Source: Vreelandella halophila (GTDB taxonomy: Bacteria > Pseudomonadota > Gammaproteobacteria > Pseudomonadales > Oleiphilaceae). From it: DNA of 64,000 bases. Both the position numbers and the translations under genes were made by a program. The notes below the pieces were generated by a model, which saw only the letters and a program-made list of their open reading frames with translations, was not told the DNA's origin and searched no databases. Of the stretch, positions 51,602 through 61,727 are shown one piece after another (position 1 is the first letter of the stretch; each line of letters opens with the position of its first letter). The DNA lies in assembly GCF_009856365.1 (NCBI RefSeq), contig NZ_WMEX01000005.1, forward strand, positions 62,001-126,000. Direction: 5' to 3'.

Positions 51602-51696
51602 ACGGGGCCACTCCCGGTGTCGGCCCTGCTGGGCAGGATCACCTTATGGGCTATACTCGGAGAGAACGGCGATTCTTTCCGGCCCCGGGGCTGACC

Positions 51697-52362
51697 ATGG
51701 CGGAATTCGATGAGGAGCGTAATCAGCTCCAGATCAAACTGGTCTACTATGGGCCAGCCCTCAGTGGCAAGACCACGAACCTTGCCGCTCTCCATGATCT
51801 GCTTCAGCCGGATCTCAAGGGCGATATGATGGTGCTTGAGACCCAGAACGACCGCACCCTTTTCTTTGATCTGTTCCCTCTCGGCTTTCAGCTGCCTTCC
51901 GGACTGACCGTGACCCTCAAACTGTATACCGTGCCCGGCCAGGTCCAGCATGACAGCACACGCAAGGCGGTCCTTTCTCGTGCGGACGGTGTGGCTTTCG
52001 TAGCCGATTCCCAGCGTAACCAGGAACAGAACAACCTGGAATCCTTCCGGAACCTGAGCGAGAACGCCAGCCGTGTTGGGCTGGATTTCGGGGCGCTGCC
52101 GCTGGCCGTCCAGTTCAACAAGCGGGATCTCGGGGACGTGGTATCGAAGCCGGATCTGGTTGCCCGGTGGCAGAGCAGCCCCTGGTGGCCGATCAAGCTG
52201 GCGACTGCCCTGGAGAACAAGGGGGTTCTGGAGACGTTCCAACTGCTTCTGGAGCGGACCTGGGGTGCGCTTGACCGTGACTACGCACTGGGGGAACAGC
52301 ATGGCCTGGATCGCGTGACATTTGTACAGAACGTGTTGGGGCAGAGTGATGCCGTCTGTTGA
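51697..52362 (+). CDS. MglA-like small Ras-type GTPase
   Basis: 221 residues from ATG 51697. P-loop YYGPALSGKTTNL, switch II region YTVPGQVQHDSTRKAVLSRADGVAFVADSQ, and guanine motif VQFNKRDL. These match MglA of Myxococcus closely in style; MglA sets cell polarity and places type IV pili. No MglB (roadblock) partner gene is seen in the window. It overlaps the next kinase gene by 14 bases, so it belongs to an operon with the kinase and the receiver-ATPase. Confidence 0.88.
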   Translation: MAEFDEERNQLQIKLVYYGPALSGKTTNLAALHDLLQPDLKGDMMVLETQNDRTLFFDLFPLGFQLPSGLTVTLKLYTVPGQVQHDSTRKAVLSRADGVAFVADSQRNQEQNNLESFRNLSENASRVGLDFGALPLAVQFNKRDLGDVVSKPDLVARWQSSPWWPIKLATALENKGVLETFQLLLERTWGALDRDYALGEQHGLDRVTFVQNVLGQSDAVC

Positions 52363-53572
52363 GCCCGGGATTGGGGACTTCGGTGAGCTGGAAGCGAGGC
52401 TGGAGCAGCTCGGCTGGAATGATCTGATGAGCGAGCGCGAAACGGCGCTGCTGGAGAAGTCGCTGACGCAGGTTGCCGGGGCGCCGGTTGCCATCGTCAT
52501 GGCCGCCGGAGAACAGCCGGCTGCTCCCATTCGCCATCAGCTTCAGGCCGTGGCCTGGGTCAGTGCGGATCTTGAAACCGGCCTGCTCCAGGGGCTTGCC
52601 CGTACGGCGGAACGGGTGCTGTACCAGGCCTCCCGCTATTACCTGGCGGCCAATCTGCATCTGGATGTGGTCCAGCGCAATTACCAGGAGCTCCAGCAGC
52701 AGCACGCCCAGCTACAGGCATCGGAGGCCCGGTACCGGGAGCTTTCAGAGCAGCTGGAGGAGCGCGTTCAGGCTCAGGTGGCACAGATCGAGGATCGTCA
52801 ACGGCGTCTGTACGCGTCGGAAAAACTCAATGCGGTGGGGCGCCTGGGGGCCGGGGTTGCCCATGAGATCAATAACCCCATTGGCTTCATACGCTCCAAC
52901 CTGAACTCGGCGCGGGATTACCTGGGGACTTTCTCCGAACTGTCGAAGCGGCTGCGCACCCTGCCGGGGGGCGAAGAGCTGGCCCGCGAGCTGGACCTGG
53001 ATTTCGTGGTCCCTGATTTCCAGGACCTGATTGATGAATCCATTGATGGTTCCGCCCGTGTTGCGGCGATTGTGAGTGCACTGCGTCGCTTTGCCGGCAC
53101 GGATGAAAGTGGTGTCTCCTCCGTCTGTATCAATGAGTTATTGCAGGGCGTCTGGGCGGTGGCGGAAGGAAGCCTTGGGGATATGACGGTCAACTGGGCG
53201 CTGGATGAATCCATTCCAACGGTTGAAGTGGATCGGGCAGGGATCAGTCAGGCCTTCTACAATCTTATGGAGAATGCCTCACTGGCGGCGGAACGCCCGG
53301 TAGGGCTGGCTGTTGCAACCGAGGGCCATGAGCAGGGTGTGCGCGTGCGGATCCGGGATGATGGTGACGGGATGGCTCCAGAGGTGTTGGCCAGGGCCTT
53401 TGATCCCTTCTATACGACAAGGTCTGTAGGGGCTGGCACTGGTCTTGGGCTGAGTGTGTGCCGTGACACCATCCGGGCCCACGGCGGAGGCATTGAGATC
53501 AGCAGTGAGCCTGGTTCCGGAACCGACGTGTCAGTATGGCTTCCCGGGAACCCATCTGCTGGTGACAGCTGA
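52349..53572 (+). CDS. Soluble sensor histidine kinase
   Basis: 407 residues from ATG 52349. There are no membrane segments. Residues 1-110 form an unassigned (perhaps GAF-like) domain, then a coiled coil (about 110-160), the H-box GVAHEINNPIGFIRSN, and an HATPase with FYNLMENASLAA, IRDDGDGM and GTGLGLSVCRD. It is closely similar in layout and H-box to the kinase at 57.7 kb. It is coupled to the MglA-like gene and probably phosphorylates the receiver of the next protein. Confidence 0.92.
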   Translation: MPSVEPGIGDFGELEARLEQLGWNDLMSERETALLEKSLTQVAGAPVAIVMAAGEQPAAPIRHQLQAVAWVSADLETGLLQGLARTAERVLYQASRYYLAANLHLDVVQRNYQELQQQHAQLQASEARYRELSEQLEERVQAQVAQIEDRQRRLYASEKLNAVGRLGAGVAHEINNPIGFIRSNLNSARDYLGTFSELSKRLRTLPGGEELARELDLDFVVPDFQDLIDESIDGSARVAAIVSALRRFAGTDESGVSSVCINELLQGVWAVAEGSLGDMTVNWALDESIPTVEVDRAGISQAFYNLMENASLAAERPVGLAVATEGHEQGVRVRIRDDGDGMAPEVLARAFDPFYTTRSVGAGTGLGLSVCRDTIRAHGGGIEISSEPGSGTDVSVWLPGNPSAGDS

Positions 53573-53586
53573 ACCAGGCGTGTTGC

Positions 53587-55833
53587 ATGTCCGAATTTGA
53601 CCAGTACTTTCTGTCCAGCAGCAAACAGTCCGGAGAGTCTGAGCCAGACTCTCCGCAAACAGGCCAGTATCGTCTGTTGTTTGTGGACGATGAACCCAAT
53701 GTGCTGAGTTCCCTGCGTCGGACCTTTCACCGTGAGAACTATGGGATCCAGTGTGCGGCCAGTGCTGAGGAGGCTCTGGCCCTGGTGCGTTCCGAACGTT
53801 TCCATCTGATGATTACCGATTTCAAGATGCCCGGTATGAATGGTGCGGACCTGCTGCGGGAAGTCAGGGAGATCTCGCCGGACACCATGCGCATCATGCT
53901 GACCGGGCATGCGGATACCCAGGCGGTGATGACCGCCATCAATGAAGGGGCGGTCTATCGCTTCATCCTCAAGCCCTGGAACGATGACGACCTGCGCGTG
54001 ACGGTGGCCCTGGCGCTGGAGCAATACGAGCTGCGGGAGAAGAACCGCAGCCTGGAAAAGACAACCAGTCGCCAGGAAAAGGACCTGGATGTCTTCCGCA
54101 AGATGAATCAGCAGCAGCGCAGCCAGCTGGCGCTGATGCTGCACAAGCATGGACTCATCAACCGCCAGCAGGTCCAGGAGGTCTACAAGATCCAGCAGGC
54201 GCGCAAGGTGGCGACCATCCGGCTGCTGCTTGAGAAGGAATGGGTCTCCCGGGAAAAGCTCTACAGCCTCCTGCGCGACGAGCTGCTCTTTGATGAGGTC
54301 GCGCTGGCGGAATTCGCCGTTGATCCGGAAGCCCTGGACCTGATCCCCGCGGATGTCTGCCAGGGCCAGCTTCTGCTGCCCCTGCGGGTCAGGGGGCGCC
54401 GTCTGGTGCTTGCCATGGCGGATCCGCTCAACCAGCCGCTCATCGAGGAACTTTCCTTCGCCATTGGGCTGAAGATTGAGCCGGTGCTGGTGCGGGTGGA
54501 TGAGCTGGAGGAGCGGCTGGGTCAGTTGTTCGGCGATCCCAGGGAAGGCATGGAGGAGCTCGAGTCCGTCTTCGATGCCAATGATCCTGGTGACACCATC
54601 GAGCTGGTCATCGAGGACGATGACTCCGATGTGGACCTGGAAGGGTTGCTGTCGGATACCCAGCAGCCCTCGGCGGTGCGTGTGGTCAATGCCGTCATCA
54701 TGGAGGGACTGCGGCTGGGGGCAAGCGATATCCACATCCAGCCACGTACCAATGTGGTGGTGGTCCGCTACCGGATTGACGGGGTTCTGCAGGACAAGAT
54801 CCGTATTCCGAGCACCATGCAGATGAGCATTGTCTCGCGGATCAAGGTGATGTCGGAGCTGGACATCACCGAAAGGCGCAGGCCCCAGGATGGCCGCCTG
54901 ACCGTGAAGACACCCATGAAGATTGTGGACCTGCGGCTGTCGACCCTGCCGACGCTCAATGGTGAGAAGGTGGTCATGCGGGTGCTGGATCGCAATTCCA
55001 GCATCAAGAACATCGATCAGCTGGCGCTTTCGGATCTCAACCGGCAACGGCTGCTCAACGTCATAACCCGGCCCCAGGGCATCATCCTGGCCACCGGACC
55101 CACCGGCAGCGGTAAGACCACAACCCTCTATGCCATGCTCCAGCATCAGGCCACGCCGGAGAAGAACTACGTCACCATTGAGGATCCGGTGGAGTTCTAC
55201 ATGGACATGGCGGGCCAGGTGCCGGTCCGGGAAAAGGTAGGGCTGGATTTCGCCTCGGTGCTCAGGGCCATCCTGCGCCAGGACCCGGATGTCATACTGC
55301 TGGGTGAGATCCGCGACCGGGAAACTGCGGAGGTGGCGTTCCATGCCGCGATGACCGGTCATATGGTCTACTCAACGCTGCACACGAATTCGGCCATTGC
55401 CTCCGTCGCCCGTCTCCTGGACCTGGGCCTGAAACCCTATGTGGTGGCCTATGGGCTGGAATGCGTGATCTCCCAGCGGCTGGTGCGCCGGCTGTGCCCG
55501 CACTGCCGTGAACCCAGCACGCCGGATCCAGAGGTCCAGAAACTGCTGGGGCCAGCCTTCGCGAGCCCCGGTCTCTACGATCATGTTTCCAGGGGCTGTG
55601 ACCGGTGCCACCATCAGGGATTCAAGGGCCGGGTCGCGCTGCACGAAGTTCTGAGCGTGACCGAGTCCATGCGCCACGTGATCGCCTCAGGCGGAGCGGT
55701 GCGCGAGATGGTGGAGCAGGCGGAGAGCGACGGGCTGGTCACGCTGGCCGCGGATGCCCGCTACCGCGTTGAGGCGGGCGAGACGAATCTGGCGGAGATC
55801 CTGCGGGTGCTGGGCAGTCAGATCGACATCTGA
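53587..55833 (+). CDS. Receiver domain fused to a GspE/PilB-type secretion or pilus ATPase
   Basis: 748 residues. Receiver at 28-145 (FVDDEPN, phosphoacceptor Asp78 in MITDFKMPG, ILKPWN), coiled coil about 145-180, MshE/GspE N-terminal domain about 180-315 (DLIPADVCQGQLLLPL, LVLAMADPLNQPLIEEL), then a full ATPase: LGASDIHIQP, Walker A GPTGSGKTT (504-512), STLHTNSA, and zinc-finger cysteine pairs CPHC and CDRC. GspE/PilB ATPases drive pseudopilus or pilus assembly, and the MshEN domain often binds cyclic-di-GMP. An N-terminal receiver is unusual and suggests direct phosphorylation control. No platform (PilC/GspF) gene is adjacent. Confidence 0.93.
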   Translation: MSEFDQYFLSSSKQSGESEPDSPQTGQYRLLFVDDEPNVLSSLRRTFHRENYGIQCAASAEEALALVRSERFHLMITDFKMPGMNGADLLREVREISPDTMRIMLTGHADTQAVMTAINEGAVYRFILKPWNDDDLRVTVALALEQYELREKNRSLEKTTSRQEKDLDVFRKMNQQQRSQLALMLHKHGLINRQQVQEVYKIQQARKVATIRLLLEKEWVSREKLYSLLRDELLFDEVALAEFAVDPEALDLIPADVCQGQLLLPLRVRGRRLVLAMADPLNQPLIEELSFAIGLKIEPVLVRVDELEERLGQLFGDPREGMEELESVFDANDPGDTIELVIEDDDSDVDLEGLLSDTQQPSAVRVVNAVIMEGLRLGASDIHIQPRTNVVVVRYRIDGVLQDKIRIPSTMQMSIVSRIKVMSELDITERRRPQDGRLTVKTPMKIVDLRLSTLPTLNGEKVVMRVLDRNSSIKNIDQLALSDLNRQRLLNVITRPQGIILATGPTGSGKTTTLYAMLQHQATPEKNYVTIEDPVEFYMDMAGQVPVREKVGLDFASVLRAILRQDPDVILLGEIRDRETAEVAFHAAMTGHMVYSTLHTNSAIASVARLLDLGLKPYVVAYGLECVISQRLVRRLCPHCREPSTPDPEVQKLLGPAFASPGLYDHVSRGCDRCHHQGFKGRVALHEVLSVTESMRHVIASGGAVREMVEQAESDGLVTLAADARYRVEAGETNLAEILRVLGSQIDI

Positions 55834-55839
55834 GGTCGT

Positions 55840-56382
55840 TTAATCCTCGTCTGACAGCGTGATGAACCCGTCCTGGTCCCGCTCGACCCGCGTTATCCCC
55901 GGTGCTTCCGACTCCAGGCGTTCCAGTTCCTTCTTCTGGGTTTCCAGTTCGCGCTGCTGGCGCCGAACCTTTTCCGCCAGCCGCTGGTTCTCCAGCGCCA
56001 TCTCCTTGTAGCGCAGGGCATTGTCGAGCGTGACCAGCAAGTCCTCGTTGGACCACGGCTTCAGGATGAAGCGATACACTTCCGAGTCGTTCACGGCGTT
56101 CACCACACCTTCAAGGTCCGCCTGACCGCTGAGCACGATCCGCAGTGCGTCAGGATGGGACTGCTTGAACTGGTTGAGCAGGGTGACGCCGTCCGTGCCG
56201 GGCATGCGGTAGTCGGAGATGATCAGATCCAGCCGATGGTGTCTGAGTTCAGCGTGGGCGCTGCGGGCGTCCTTGCAGGTAAGGGTGATCCAGTTCCGGT
56301 GACGGAAAAGGCGCACCAGAGCGCTCAGAATCTCCGGCTCGTCGTCGATCAGTGCAATGACGGGCTTCTGTTCCTCCGACAT
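55840..56382 (-). CDS. Receiver-domain protein with C-terminal coiled coil
   Basis: 180 residues. Receiver 8-125 (LIDDEPEILS, phosphoacceptor in LIISDYRMPGTDG, FILKPWS), then a Lys/Glu/Arg-rich coiled coil (about 130-160) and a short acidic tail. There is no output domain. It could pass a signal by contact or act as a phosphate sink. It converges on the receiver-ATPase gene with a six-base gap and lies four bases after the receiver-HD gene. Confidence 0.92.
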   Translation of the reverse strand: MSEEQKPVIALIDDEPEILSALVRLFRHRNWITLTCKDARSAHAELRHHRLDLIISDYRMPGTDGVTLLNQFKQSHPDALRIVLSGQADLEGVVNAVNDSEVYRFILKPWSNEDLLVTLDNALRYKEMALENQRLAEKVRRQQRELETQKKELERLESEAPGITRVERDQDGFITLSDED

Positions 56383-56386
56383 GGGC

Positions 56387-57715
56387 TCACTCCTCGTTGG
56401 TGTGGACGTCCCTGGCCGGTACCGTCACGGACACCTTGAGGTGTCGGCGGTCCTCCCAGCTCATCCGGGTAAGGCGTTTGATGGCGCTGTCGTTGAGCAC
56501 CGTTCCCTTGACCATCAGCAGGATCCCGTTGGCGCTGACGATGTCGCGTGTCAGCTCCATACCCGGGCGCAGCTCCGAGATGGGCAGCATCCTTCCGGTT
56601 TCATCGTCCTGGGGCTCCAGCGTGAACTGATTGACGATGGGCTCAAGCGCAGCCAACACTTCCGGGTCATAGAACCGGCCGGAGCGCTCCTTCATGCTCT
56701 CAAAGGCCTCCGCTGGAGAGACAGGTGGGTCCCGGAGCAGAGGCGTCTGCTGGCCCACGAAGTCCCTTGCCACCCGGATGATGCGCGCTCCCTGGGGAAT
56801 GGCCTCTCCGGCCAGCTCGTCGGGGTAGCCCGTGCCGTCCATATTCTCCATATGGGCGCGGATCAGCTCGGCGCAGGGGCGCAGGGCCTTGATCGGCATC
56901 AGTGCCATTTCACCCAGTGTGGGGTATTGGCGGTACTCGGCCAGGTCCCGGTAGGTCAGCTGGGTTTCCGAGCGTCCCAGGACATCATCGTTCAGGCTCA
57001 GCTTGCCCACCTCGTGCAGCAGGGCTGCGTAGTAGACGTAGCGGAGCCGGGCCGTGTCCAGTTCCAGCCGCTGGGCAATGCGCCGGGCAAGGTCCGCAAC
57101 CTCCCGGGAGCGGCCTTTCACGAGATGGGGGCGGCTGGCAATGACGGATGAGAACACGCGCACAAAGGAGTCGTAACTGTTCTCGAGCTGGCGGAAAGCT
57201 TTCTGCAGGTCGGCCGTACGGGATTCCAGTGCGCGTGTGCGGTCATGTACCCGCTGTTCAAGATCCCTGTTCAGGTCCTGGAGTTCCCGGTTCTGTTCCC
57301 GGGTCTGGTCGATCAACCGCTTTTTCTGGCGCTCCAGCTTGCGGATGCGCAGGCCCTCTTCGATGGCCTCGATCAGAGCCTCGTCATCCCAGGGCTTGGA
57401 GACGTAGCGGTTGATGCCGCCCTGATTGAGCGCATCAATGGTGGCACTCATGTCCGCATACCCGGTCATCAGAAAGCGCACGCTGAATGGCCAGCGCTTT
57501 CTGACCTCGCTCAGGAACTGCGCACCGTCCATTTCCGGCATACGCATGTCGGAGATGACCAGGTCGATCGGGTTCTGTTCCAGGATCGCCAGTCCTTCCC
57601 TGCCGCTGGTCGCGAACCAGCAGTCGTAGTCGTGGCGGCGCATGAGACGCCGGAGGGCGCTCAGTATGGGTTCCTCATCATCAACGAACAGGATGCGGAA
57701 ACGGTAATCGCTCAT
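56387..57715 (-). CDS. Receiver with degenerate HD-GYP domain
   Basis: 442 residues. Receiver 7-122 (phosphoacceptor Asp56 in VISDMRMPEMDG, VSKPWD), coiled coil about 125-180, then an HD-GYP-like domain (about 180-330) and a C-terminal PilZ- or beta-type part. The GYP stretch MDGTGYPDEL is kept, but the HD is His-Glu (H234-E235), the next expected His is Tyr264, and HHE is His-Met-Glu (288-290). Several metal ligands of the cyclic-di-GMP phosphodiesterase are therefore changed. It may bind rather than cut the nucleotide. It is coupled to the kinase upstream (ATGA overlap). Confidence 0.9.
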   Translation of the reverse strand: MSDYRFRILFVDDEEPILSALRRLMRRHDYDCWFATSGREGLAILEQNPIDLVISDMRMPEMDGAQFLSEVRKRWPFSVRFLMTGYADMSATIDALNQGGINRYVSKPWDDEALIEAIEEGLRIRKLERQKKRLIDQTREQNRELQDLNRDLEQRVHDRTRALESRTADLQKAFRQLENSYDSFVRVFSSVIASRPHLVKGRSREVADLARRIAQRLELDTARLRYVYYAALLHEVGKLSLNDDVLGRSETQLTYRDLAEYRQYPTLGEMALMPIKALRPCAELIRAHMENMDGTGYPDELAGEAIPQGARIIRVARDFVGQQTPLLRDPPVSPAEAFESMKERSGRFYDPEVLAALEPIVNQFTLEPQDDETGRMLPISELRPGMELTRDIVSANGILLMVKGTVLNDSAIKRLTRMSWEDRRHLKVSVTVPARDVHTNEE

Positions 57716-59034
57716 TCCACAGCCTCACTCGATGTCTGCCTGATGGGCAGGACAACGCGGAAGGTCGTGCCTTCACCGGGAGTGCTGGCAACGCTCAGCT
57801 CGCCCTGGTGACTCTGTACGATGCCATAGGAAAGCGACAGGCCGAGGCCGGTGCCCTTACCAACGGGCTTGGTTGTGAAGAATGGCTCGAAGAGCCGGTC
57901 CAGGTTGTGAGGGTCTATGCCTTTGCCGGTGTCGGCGATCCGTACTTCAACGTGATCCGCATCATGATGCTCCGTGGAAATGGTGATGAGGCCCTGTTCC
58001 TCAATCGCCTGGGCCGCATTCACCAGCAGGTTCAGGAAGACCTGGCCCAGCTGGGAGTCCACGCCCGTGATCGTTGGCAGCTCCGCAAAGTCGGTTTCAA
58101 CCGTGGCCCTGTACTTGATTTCATTCCGGGCCACTGCCAGCGCCTTGTTCAGGCACTGATGGATGTCCAGTGATTCCATTTCGCCGGTATCCGTGCGGGA
58201 GAAGTCCCGGAGGGAACGGATGATCTTTTCCACCCGCTCGATGCCGTCCCGGGACTCGTCCAGGAGGGAGGGCAGATCCTCCCGGATGAATTCGAGATCA
58301 TGGCTGCGACACAGGGACTGGAGTTCCGGAGACTGGAATTTTTCCCCCAGCGCCTCGGCAAACGCATCATTCAGGGCCAGGAGGGATTCGGTGTATTCGC
58401 GCAGTGAGGACAGGTTGGAGCGCACATAGCCGATGGGGTTGTTGATCTCATGCGCGACACCGGCCGCCAGCTGCCCGATGCTTGCCATCTTTTCGGACTG
58501 CATCAGCTGGTCGCGGGCCTGTTTGAGCTCGCGAATCAACTCATCCTGTTCGTTCTGGCGCTGGCGCAGCGCAGCGTTGCTCGATGCGAGCTCATCGAGG
58601 AGGGTGTTTTTGTCCATAGCACTCATGGCCTCCTGTATCAGCCGGTTCGCGTTGAGTTCATCCTCGCGCGTGAAGGGCTCGCTGCCGGCATTGCGGATCA
58701 GTACGAGTGTCAGAGTAAGCTGTTCGCCCTGGCGGTAGGGGGCAGCCATAAGGGGGAGGGATTCTTCTCCCGCAGGGCAGTGACAACTCCAGGGGGCATC
58801 CGGAGTCAGGAGGCCGTAGCCCTGTTCCTCCCATTCGAGTATCTTCTCCAGCGTCAGGTCCCGGCTGATCCAGGAAACGCAGTGGCTGGGGTCCAGCGCG
58901 ATACCTCCGGCGTGACCTTCACACAGCAGGCTCGCCCGGGTCAGAAGCTCACGGTGGAATTCGGGCTGTTCCCGGTGGACATGCCTGAGCCATTCATGGA
59001 TCTCGGACCAGAGATAGTGCTGGTACTTACTCAT
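57712..59034 (-). CDS. Soluble sensor histidine kinase with GAF-like N-terminus
   Basis: 440 residues, without membrane segments. Residues 20-140 are GAF-like, followed by a coiled coil (about 145-180). The H-box is GVAHEINNPIGYVRSN, and the HATPase has VFLNLLVNAAQAI, IADTGKGID and GTGLGLSLSYGIV. It heads the leftward operon with the receiver-HD-GYP and receiver proteins, which are its likely targets. Its H-box is nearly the same as that of the kinase at 52.3 kb. Confidence 0.92.
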   Translation of the reverse strand: MSKYQHYLWSEIHEWLRHVHREQPEFHRELLTRASLLCEGHAGGIALDPSHCVSWISRDLTLEKILEWEEQGYGLLTPDAPWSCHCPAGEESLPLMAAPYRQGEQLTLTLVLIRNAGSEPFTREDELNANRLIQEAMSAMDKNTLLDELASSNAALRQRQNEQDELIRELKQARDQLMQSEKMASIGQLAAGVAHEINNPIGYVRSNLSSLREYTESLLALNDAFAEALGEKFQSPELQSLCRSHDLEFIREDLPSLLDESRDGIERVEKIIRSLRDFSRTDTGEMESLDIHQCLNKALAVARNEIKYRATVETDFAELPTITGVDSQLGQVFLNLLVNAAQAIEEQGLITISTEHHDADHVEVRIADTGKGIDPHNLDRLFEPFFTTKPVGKGTGLGLSLSYGIVQSHQGELSVASTPGEGTTFRVVLPIRQTSSEAVE

Positions 59035-59213: not shown

Positions 59214-61727
59214 ATGAAACACGCCGCTTCGTTCCCCCGTCTGCTGCTCTGGGGCCTTGAAGGCCCTGAAGCCGATCGCCTTGCCAGAGCCTGTGCGCGA
59301 GCCGGTTTTCCCGGTGCAGAGATGACGTCAGCGCTGAGCGGGGAGTCGCTGATAGGGCTTCTCGATGATGGGGGGGTTGATCTTGTGGTCCTGGGGGGGA
59401 ATGGGGATGACCCGGCAGAATCTCCCCGTATCCTGACGGACGAGCTGGTTGCGGAAAACCAGGCAACCGCCTTCCTGATTCTGGGCGCCAGTGCGCTGCC
59501 GGAAAGTCTGGAGGAGCGCTTTAATCTGAGGTGCCTTCCGGAGCCCGGCGGGGATGATGGGCTCCTGCGCCGGGTGCTGGGGCAGCTGCTCAATGAGATC
59601 CGGCTGTGGCAGCATTCAACCCTGTTTCAGGCCTGCGTTGAAGCCAGCGCCAACGGCATCGTTATTGTGGATGCTCGCGCCGATGACATGCCCATCGTTC
59701 ATGTCAACCAGGCCTTTTCCCGGATTACCGGGTATGAGCCGGAGGAAGTCCACGGCTGTAACTGCCGTTTTCTTCAGGGCAGTGATCGCAAGCAGCCCGG
59801 GGTGGACCAGGTGAGGATGGCCATTCGGGCCGGCAAACCGGCGCTTGTGCAGATGCGCAACTACCGCAGGGATGGCTCACGCTTCTCAAACGAGCTCCAG
59901 GTTTCACCGGTGCGTGAGAATGGCGGTCACATCACCCATTATATCGGGGTCATCAATGATGTGTCCGCGCGCATGGATGCGGAATCGGCACTGGCCTATC
60001 GCACCAGTTATGACGGCCTGACCGGGCTTCCCAATTTTGAGCAGTTCAGGAACCGTGTCGGCCAGGCATGCGAGGAGTCGGGGCATCACCGGCACGCCGT
60101 GGCACTGACGCTGTTCAATATTGATAACTTCAAGGCGATTAACGCCACTTTCGGAGCCGGGGCTGCTGATCAGCTGCTCAAGGCTGTGGTGGACCGGGTA
60201 ACGCCACTGCTTGGGCGCAGTGATCTGCTGGCGCGTCTGAGTGCGGATGAATTCGCCATTCTCCAGACCGAGGTTCTGGGTAGCCATGATGTGAGTTCGC
60301 TGGTGGATTCCGTGGTGTCGGTGCTGTCCATTCCCTTCCGGCTGGAAGGGCAGGAGCTTTTTGTGACCGCCAGTGCCGGTATCGCGTGGACTGGCGAGAA
60401 TGTCGCGGGCGCCGATGAACTGATGAGCCATGCGAGTCTGGCATTGAGGAATGCCAAGCAGTGTGGCGGTGGTAGCTACCGGTGGTACAGTATTCTGCTC
60501 GCTGAAGAGGTGGAATGGACCCTCAAGCTTCACAATCAGCTGCAGCACGCTTTGAGCGAGCAGCAGTTTGAGCTCTATTATCAGCCGGTTGTGGAGGCGC
60601 GAAGCCAGGAGGTCGTCGGCATCGAGGCTTTGCTGCGCTGGCACCACCCGGAGCAGGGCATGCTGTCTCCGGCTGACTTTCTTCAGGCGATCGAAACCAG
60701 CGGCCTCATGGTTGAGGTCACGGACTGGGTGCTCAGGCGGGCCTGCACGGATCTCAATCGGCTCATGGAAGAAACCGGCCGGATGCTGTGGGTTTCCGTG
60801 AACATCTCACCCAACCATTTTGTGCGTGGCGATGTGGTCTCATCGGTGAAAAGCGTATTGGAAAGCACCGGCCTTGAACCCGCCTGCCTGAACCTGGAGC
60901 TGGTTGAATCCACCTTCCTGTCGTTTGACGAACCGGTGCGCAGGGCCCTTGATGAGATCCGTACCCTGGGAATTGGCCTGATGATCGACGACTTCGGTGC
61001 CGGCTTCTCGAGCCTGAACTACCTCAAGCAGGTTCCCGCCTCGAGGATCAAAATCGACCGCTCCTTCGTCCGCGATATTGTCTCGGACAGTGCCGATGCC
61101 GCGATCACGCGGGGCGTCATCGCGCTAGCCCACAAGCTGAACCTGCAGGTTGTGGGGGAGGGGGTTGAGGATCGCTATCAGCTGGCATTCCTGCTTCGCA
61201 ATCACTGCGATCTGGTGCAGGGCTTTCTGCCGGGGCCGCCCATGCCATTTGAACAGTTACGAACCCATGAGCTGAGCGCGGAGACCCGGGAGGCGCTAGC
61301 CGAGGTGAACGGGCGTGAGCCAGGCGATCAGGCCAGCCGGCGATTGTTGATCCTTGATGATGAGCCCAATATCCTCAGATCGCTCAAGCGGCTCCTCAGG
61401 CGGGATGGGTATGAGATCCACACGGTTACGTCGGCGCAGGAGGCGTTGAACCTGCTTGCCCTGTATGAATTCCAGGTGGTTCTGTCGGATCAGCGCATGC
61501 CGGAGATGACGGGGACTGATTTCCTGAGTCGCGTCAAGGAGCTCTATCCGGACACCATCCGCATTGTCCTTTCAGGCTATACCGACCTGGATTCCGTGAC
61601 CGACGCGGTCAATCGAGGGGCGATCTACAAGTTCCTGACCAAACCCTGGGATGATGAACAGTTGCGGAGCCAGATACGACAGGCATTCCTGCATCATGCC
61701 GCGGCTCTGGAGGATATGGAGAACTAG
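59214..61727 (+). CDS. LOV-like PAS / GGDEF / EAL / receiver protein
   Basis: 837 residues. 1-130: pseudo-receiver-like domain. 135-255: PAS domain with the LOV signature GCNCRFLQ (flavin-adduct Cys184) and the Asn residues of NYRRDG (216) and FSNEL (226), but Ile247 where LOV domains have Gln. 260-425: GGDEF domain with SADEF at 343-347, so cyclase activity is unlikely. 440-685: EAL domain with EALLRW (471), NISPNHF, IDDFGAGFSSL (591-600), RIKID and GEGVED, so phosphodiesterase activity is likely. 708-830: C-terminal receiver (Asp759, LTKPWD). A blue-light-responsive cyclic-di-GMP phosphodiesterase is the best guess. Confidence 0.92.
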   Translation: MKHAASFPRLLLWGLEGPEADRLARACARAGFPGAEMTSALSGESLIGLLDDGGVDLVVLGGNGDDPAESPRILTDELVAENQATAFLILGASALPESLEERFNLRCLPEPGGDDGLLRRVLGQLLNEIRLWQHSTLFQACVEASANGIVIVDARADDMPIVHVNQAFSRITGYEPEEVHGCNCRFLQGSDRKQPGVDQVRMAIRAGKPALVQMRNYRRDGSRFSNELQVSPVRENGGHITHYIGVINDVSARMDAESALAYRTSYDGLTGLPNFEQFRNRVGQACEESGHHRHAVALTLFNIDNFKAINATFGAGAADQLLKAVVDRVTPLLGRSDLLARLSADEFAILQTEVLGSHDVSSLVDSVVSVLSIPFRLEGQELFVTASAGIAWTGENVAGADELMSHASLALRNAKQCGGGSYRWYSILLAEEVEWTLKLHNQLQHALSEQQFELYYQPVVEARSQEVVGIEALLRWHHPEQGMLSPADFLQAIETSGLMVEVTDWVLRRACTDLNRLMEETGRMLWVSVNISPNHFVRGDVVSSVKSVLESTGLEPACLNLELVESTFLSFDEPVRRALDEIRTLGIGLMIDDFGAGFSSLNYLKQVPASRIKIDRSFVRDIVSDSADAAITRGVIALAHKLNLQVVGEGVEDRYQLAFLLRNHCDLVQGFLPGPPMPFEQLRTHELSAETREALAEVNGREPGDQASRRLLILDDEPNILRSLKRLLRRDGYEIHTVTSAQEALNLLALYEFQVVLSDQRMPEMTGTDFLSRVKELYPDTIRIVLSGYTDLDSVTDAVNRGAIYKFLTKPWDDEQLRSQIRQAFLHHAAALEDMEN

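Follow-up and report, generated by a model that had tools for sequence, protein, structure and literature searches.

A receiver-PilB motor fusion, usually encoded with an MglA-type GTPase and a histidine kinase, suggests a compact control unit for type IV pilus extension

Results

Within the window, the 64,000-nucleotide stretch of Vreelandella halophila DNA analysed here, we find a PilB/GspE-type motor gene fused to a receiver domain, hereafter REC-PilB, lying behind genes for an MglA-type GTPase and a histidine kinase, HK1, and followed by further signalling genes (Table 1). HK1 overlaps the GTPase gene by 14 bases, and the motor gene begins 14 bases past HK1.

Table 1. Features at the REC-PilB locus (positions in the window)
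Feature	Position	Strand	Remarks
MglA-type Ras-like small GTPase	51646..52362	+	238 aa from first ATG; phmmer to solved MglA
Histidine kinase HK1, HEINNP His box	52349..53572	+	HATPase_c 4.9e-23
REC-helix-MshEN-T2SSE motor gene (REC-PilB)	53587..55833	+	ATG start, 748 aa, no internal stop
Receiver, residues 31-140, phosphoacceptor D78	53677..54006	+	Pfam Response_reg 2.5e-25
Unbroken helix, residues 133-175, coiled coil presumed	53983..54111	+	AlphaFold model
Residues 180-320, MshEN-type, with degenerate c-di-GMP motif	54124..54546	+	Pfam, model, motif counts
PilB/GspE-type ATPase domain, residues 362-740	54670..55806	+	Pfam T2SSE 5.3e-123, motif conservation
Single-domain receiver	55840..56382	-	Pfam; convergent with motor gene in window
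REC-HD_5 response regulator, NosR family	56387..57715	-	NF053512 510.6 bits, cut-off 400
Second histidine kinase HK2	57712..59034	-	Pfam; linked in relatives
PAS-GGDEF-EAL-REC protein, looser cluster member	59214..61727	+	Pfam

The original prediction that one chain joins a receiver, a helical linker, an MshEN-type fold and a complete motor was borne out by Pfam and by an AlphaFold model. All three Pfam domains of REC-PilB score far above cut-off, with T2SSE (PF00437) at 410.8 bits against a gathering threshold of 24.9, which places the protein in that superfamily, and MshEN at residues 238-320 (2.5e-19). The model of residues 1-345, built from 59 sequences (mean pLDDT 80.1), has a (beta-alpha)5 receiver fold at residues 29-139 and, from residue 181 to 231, four helices followed by an alpha/beta region to about residue 315; the structure alignments took in 70 of 72 (A2) and 59 of 65 (A3) prepared rows. 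In a Foldseek search the receiver part resembled solved receivers and receiver-linker structures, those of DctD, NtrC1 and HupR among them.

The fusion is real and widely conserved. Full-length REC-PilB was found in six of 194 genomes of an order-level sample, the window genome included, and the five relatives belong to one sister genus and all encode HK2, a single-domain receiver, MglA, HK1 and REC-PilB consecutively in one orientation, three of them with REC-HD as well. A seventh match in this sample (G186) was rejected as a family member, being the motor part alone, with no receiver, and placed elsewhere in the tree described below. Public loci were taken from a contig scan as the best 80 of 568 relatives, picked by two receiver peptides, and they therefore give no estimate of prevalence. 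The same domain order, sought in other genomes as the original prediction had proposed, was found in 68 of these best 80 of 568, where a pattern test places receiver and Walker A within one uninterrupted frame, so that the fusion is not a chance one. Taxa among the best 80 of 568 include Marinobacter, Stutzerimonas, Pseudomonas indica, Rhodocyclales, Sulfuricella, Geobacteraceae, Desulfatitalea, Nitrospira and others, which we take to span Gamma- and Betaproteobacteria, Desulfobacterota and Nitrospirota; the culturable genera with REC-PilB in this set include Marinobacter, Stutzerimonas, Azonexus and Geomonas, and the closest relative among the 80 is that of Halovibrio salipaludis, whose protein is 99% identical.

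The gene linkage, which like the GTPase had no place in the original prediction, is equally plain. Among the best 80 of 568 loci, MglA and HK1 matches stand contiguous, co-oriented and directly upstream of the motor, often overlapping, in 70, or in 70 of 76 once two non-fusions and two loci in which the motor locus begins at a contig edge (L058, L084) are removed; in one of the 70 (L113) the kinase match is a fragment. The exceptions comprise two loci with the kinase alone upstream of the fused motor (L096, L100), one with MglA and kinase about 4.6 kb downstream of it (L099), and three with a fused motor and neither gene nearby (L098, L101, L102). A sample unselected for linkage gave the same picture. 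Across 369 class genomes, we found the REC-MshEN half in 7 and MglA at E 1e-10 or better in 12, each count including the window genome, and fusions may be under-counted here because the scan scored five candidates per genome. With the window genome left out, MglA was present in 6/6 fusion genomes vs. 11/368 overall (p 1.4e-10), and in those 6 it lies about 1.3 kb upstream of the fusion on the same strand, a gap into which HK1 would fit. Five of the MglA-bearing class genomes had no fusion that we could find, and three of the five hold distant MglA relatives at 27-30% identity. In G526 (L162:6543-7233), MglA survives in pieces in two frames, next to it stands a motor remnant of only the final 90 residues, and the interval shows no HK1 match, a clear case of joint decay of MglA and motor. 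G228 (L161:6514-6969) retains MglA in one frame with about 27 residues missing and neither HK1 nor motor found beside it, which is suggestive of the same decay.

Shared inheritance alone could keep the three genes together while MglA and HK1 act on other targets, which would be in keeping with the presence of MglA in other settings, one of which, beside pilB-pilT-pilC with roadblock genes, is described below; nevertheless, a gene order kept over several phyla, the co-occurrence in all six fusion genomes and the case of joint decay leave this explanation very improbable.

The acidic pair, the Asp acceptor, the Thr/Ser and the Lys of receivers have well-known roles in phosphorylation. In REC-PilB this PF00072 set is complete (acidic pair D34/D35, acceptor D78, T106 and K129), and the catalytic set of the motor, including Walker A, Walker B, the box histidines and the tetracysteine, is present. 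The window protein and its five close relatives share, without any change, the five receiver residues, both Walker motifs, two box histidines and four cysteines. We extended the counts to 79 sequences, namely the window and 78 of the best 80 of 568 loci, with Methylomonas L105 and L112 left out and with gaps that reflect incomplete genes or the alignment: D34, D35 and D78 were each kept in 78/79 (1 gap), T106 and K129 in 79/79, K510 in 73/79 (6 gaps), E574 in 72/79 (7 gaps) and C671 in 72/79 (S in one, 6 gaps), the loosest motor residue being D533 (67/79, E in 5, 7 gaps). Retention of the receiver residues makes it plausible that phosphorylation controls the motor.

The same cannot be said of direct c-di-GMP control of the motor, a further element of the original prediction. 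MshEN domains bind c-di-GMP through two RLGxx...G...LxxxLxxQ motifs, according to sections of PMC5013675 which add that perfect conservation may not be required. REC-PilB has Q-L-A in place of R-L-G in motif I, and A, T, I, E and E in place of R, L, G, G and Q in motif II, so that motif I is partly and motif II largely lost. In the 79 sequences (from the best 80 of 568), the motif I Arg is retained in 15 and Gly-3 of motif II in 4, and the first Arg and last Gln of motif II fall outside the seven commonest states. With the published binding motif degenerate across the family, we rejected direct c-di-GMP control. A version in which c-di-GMP acting on the MshEN region would be the main switch, with the receiver secondary, can draw on the MshEN fold seen by Pfam and in the model, on c-di-GMP enzyme domains close by and on the tolerance for an imperfect motif in PMC5013675, but the motif losses just listed make it highly improbable.

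Turning to the upstream partners, MglA may actually begin at its second Met (51697), close to the start of its relatives. The best solved-MglA match is T. thermophilus MglA 3t12 (phmmer, E 3.1e-40), and the MglA motifs are nearly invariant in 72 sequences (P-loop GKT and Arg finger R70, 72/72; TVPGQ, T 72/72 and Q 71/72; NKxD, N 72/72, K 71/72 and D 72/72), homology and motifs together marking the protein as MglA-type. This is the sole MglA found in the window genome, and Roadblock/MglB (PF03259) gave 0 matches there, its positive control matching in 3/14 genomes; the GTPase cycle is thus without a known regulator. HK1 is apparently soluble, with a maximum KD19 of 1.22 vs. 3.05 for PilC and no strongly hydrophobic stretch. 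Its N-terminal segment of about 110 aa is modelled as an alpha-beta3-alpha domain (pLDDT 91.5) which has no PDB match at E 0.001 or better and, over 70 members, no convincing Pfam match. Roadblock, GAF and PAS identities were rejected on these grounds; the KdpD GAF domain was among the weak top structure matches (E 0.3).

The remaining genes of the cluster are linked more loosely. In the window, HK2, REC-HD and the single-domain receiver lie inverted downstream of the motor (55840-59034). In the five close relatives HK2 and the receiver, joined in three of them by REC-HD, precede MglA in its own orientation, the receiver standing just upstream of MglA, as it does in 31/71 MglA loci from the best 80 of 568. 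In the same 71 loci from the best 80 of 568, a REC-HD match over 300 aa occurs in 51, a PAS-GGDEF-EAL match over 500 aa in 35, and HK2-like matches outside the HK1 gene in 56, of which 48 lie upstream of MglA on the MglA strand. By the count of 56/71, HK2 is linked too, if less strictly; HK1, encoded upstream, is probably the more important kinase, and HK2 and the other receivers of the cluster could cross-talk. HD-GYP phosphodiesterases usually carry HD and HH at positions where the REC-HD_5 protein (56387-57715) reads HEVGK and HMENMDGTGYP, so it may be inactive here. The PAS-GGDEF-EAL protein (59214-61727) has a C-terminal receiver and a relative (L027:15188-18040) two receiver matches, a layout reminiscent of FimX.

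To place the motor among known ones, we compared it with family models and built a likelihood tree from 56 motor cores, comprising the receiver-motor of the window, those of 24 hand-picked loci and 31 other motors. The 25 receiver-motors form one clade (support 100/98) apart from PilB, GspE, MshE and TfpB, the copies of the window genome itself included. The best NCBIfam match of REC-PilB is PilB (TIGR02538) at 530.0 bits, below the cut-off of 675.65; GspE (TIGR02533), also among the best family models, reaches 500.7 bits (cut-off 630.25) and TfpB (NF053534) 424.6 bits (cut-off 850). PilB is further defined by being encoded beside pilC, and no T2SSF gene lies at the window locus. By its sequence, then, we assign REC-PilB to a distinct family inside the PilB/GspE superfamily. 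Two other motors deserve mention. The TfpB of the window genome (L024:7928-9691, C13) scores 917 bits vs. 850 with no receiver pattern found, has no adjoining platform gene and lies, by eye, near CheA-like, receptor-like and CheR-like genes. In Methylomonas (L105:9998-12331, L112:10001-12383) each TfpB-type motor gene has a gene for a single-domain receiver immediately ahead of it, in the same orientation; being separate genes, these were rejected as fusions and are possibly a second, unfused receiver-motor pairing.

As for the machine served, the best 80 of 568 loci, whose flanks on each side of the motor reach at least 5 kb in 55/80 and about 10 kb in 45/80, yielded no T2SSF platform, second motor or pilin-like gene, and the same scan matched at the T4aP, T2SS and MSHA loci of the window genome as positive controls. 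An adjacent pilus or secretion system was accordingly rejected, and at the window locus the earlier observation that no platform gene adjoins the motor holds. Platform genes were present in 38/38 genomes searched (those of 31 of the best 80 of 568 loci plus 7 others, hand-chosen for spread), 37 of them with the fusion, L105 being the non-fusion, and most hold more than one. With no platform or pilin gene nearby, yet platform genes in 37/37 fusion genomes, the motor probably plugs into a system encoded elsewhere, as had been predicted.

Which system this may be is best approached through individual genomes. The window genome encodes a platform protein next to each of pilB, gspE and mshE, three in all. 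In G421, 99% complete and carrying the cassette, the sole platform gene is pilC, directly after pilB and 57% identical in product to the window-genome PilC, so that the motor there uses PilC or no platform. A second PilB-type motor of G421 (C9) also has no adjoining platform gene; lone motors are therefore not special to the REC-PilB family. In a Zixibacteria genome (G586, L165:2834-6549) the order is Roadblock, MglA, Roadblock, pilB, then pilT and pilC by best match, which is an independent link of the MglA family to type IVa pili. REC-PilB might instead drive type II secretion or an MSHA-type pilus, since platform proteins of the window genome also stand beside gspE and mshE and GspE is among the best family models; set against G421, with its cassette and pilC as only platform gene, and against a clade apart from GspE and MshE, this proposal seems to us improbable.

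Discussion

We propose that REC-PilB is a kinase- and GTPase-controlled accessory extension motor of type IVa pili and the output of a three-protein unit, a reading to which we give about an even chance (roughly 0.5). HK1 would phosphorylate D78 of REC-PilB, a phosphotransfer that we infer because the two genes adjoin and the residues are intact. The receiver, acting via the long helix on the N-terminal domain of the motor, would then alter motor assembly or engagement with PilC. Receivers control NtrC-type ATPases in like manner, and because the receiver-helix-ATPase order recalls the NtrC1/DctD arrangement, the step controlled is, by analogy, most likely hexamer assembly or platform docking. 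MglA-GTP may add a second input, probably a spatial (polar) one, a role that we surmise because M. xanthus MglA activates polar pili through SgmX (sections of PMC7668184). At the pilus, REC-PilB would act as an accessory extension ATPase beside PilB and TfpB, the window genome thus offering three candidates for one PilC; in A. baylyi, two extension motors serve one pilus (sections of PMC8213720). More tentatively, the N-terminal domain of HK1 might read or regulate MglA-GTP in place of MglB, such that cell polarity gates the kinase and the kinase licenses a dedicated type IVa motor at a single pole, an elaboration that we consider rather unlikely as it stands.

A different explanation is that REC-PilB is a signalling ATPase and not a pilus motor, its turnover or hexamer state reporting to kinases, the GTPase and c-di-GMP enzymes. 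The lack of any pilus structural gene found beside the motor in the best 80 of 568 loci is compatible with such a role, as are the kinases, receivers and HD_5/GGDEF/EAL genes all around it, and PMC5544727 describes M. xanthus PilB as an intermediary in EPS regulation. However, the motor residues, including the tetracysteine site, are retained, and platform genes accompany the fusion in all 37 fusion genomes searched; on balance we judge this role unlikely.

The timing and pole choice of bacterial pilus extension are only partly understood, and known routes to PilB run via separate proteins such as FimX, SgmX and CpiA. What the present locus suggests is a compact, little-noticed control unit for type IV pilus extension, with the phospho-switch built into a motor that is usually encoded, as part of one cassette, together with a kinase and a GTPase of MglA type; it is this cassette that makes the motor of more interest than the receiver fusion alone. 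Direct phospho-control of a pilus motor becomes testable with three purified proteins, as does the link of an MglA-type GTPase to a pilus motor outside myxobacteria. We found no description of a receiver-PilB fusion with MglA in the literature searched, including sections of PMC3441718, PMC2864759 and PMC10333796. A GTPase survey (PMC4316618) gives, in the sections consulted, kinases, roadblock proteins and PATAN as neighbours and refers to PilB a single time, in connection with SofG. Sections of PMC5013675 state that MshEN occurs with REC domains, so the bare association of the two is already known, and REC-MshEN-motor proteins may be listed in its supplementary table.

Comparison with known systems brings out what is shared and what differs. 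1) TfpB of Acinetobacter baylyi is likewise an additional extension-type motor alongside canonical PilB (sections of PMC8213720). 2) The M. xanthus MglA/SgmX system ties an MglA GTPase to type IV pilus extension (sections of PMC7668184), but the GTPase of the window is encoded with a kinase and a receiver-motor, and no Roadblock/MglB was found in the genome. 3) In the actinobacterial conservons (CvnA kinase, CvnB, CvnC and CvnD GTPase), an MglA-family GTPase also adjoins a histidine kinase; according to sections of PMC4316618, those include a roadblock protein but lack a response regulator, whereas the output here is a receiver-motor fusion. 4) PilB shares with REC-PilB the MshEN-type and T2SSE layout, the catalytic motifs and the tetracysteine, from which REC-PilB departs by its extra receiver and helix, the absence of a pilC neighbour and its separate clade. 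5) NtrC1 and DctD likewise combine a receiver, a long linker helix and a hexameric ATPase, and their receiver structures match that of REC-PilB; their output is an AAA+ transcription activator, whereas that of REC-PilB is a PilB/GspE-type motor.
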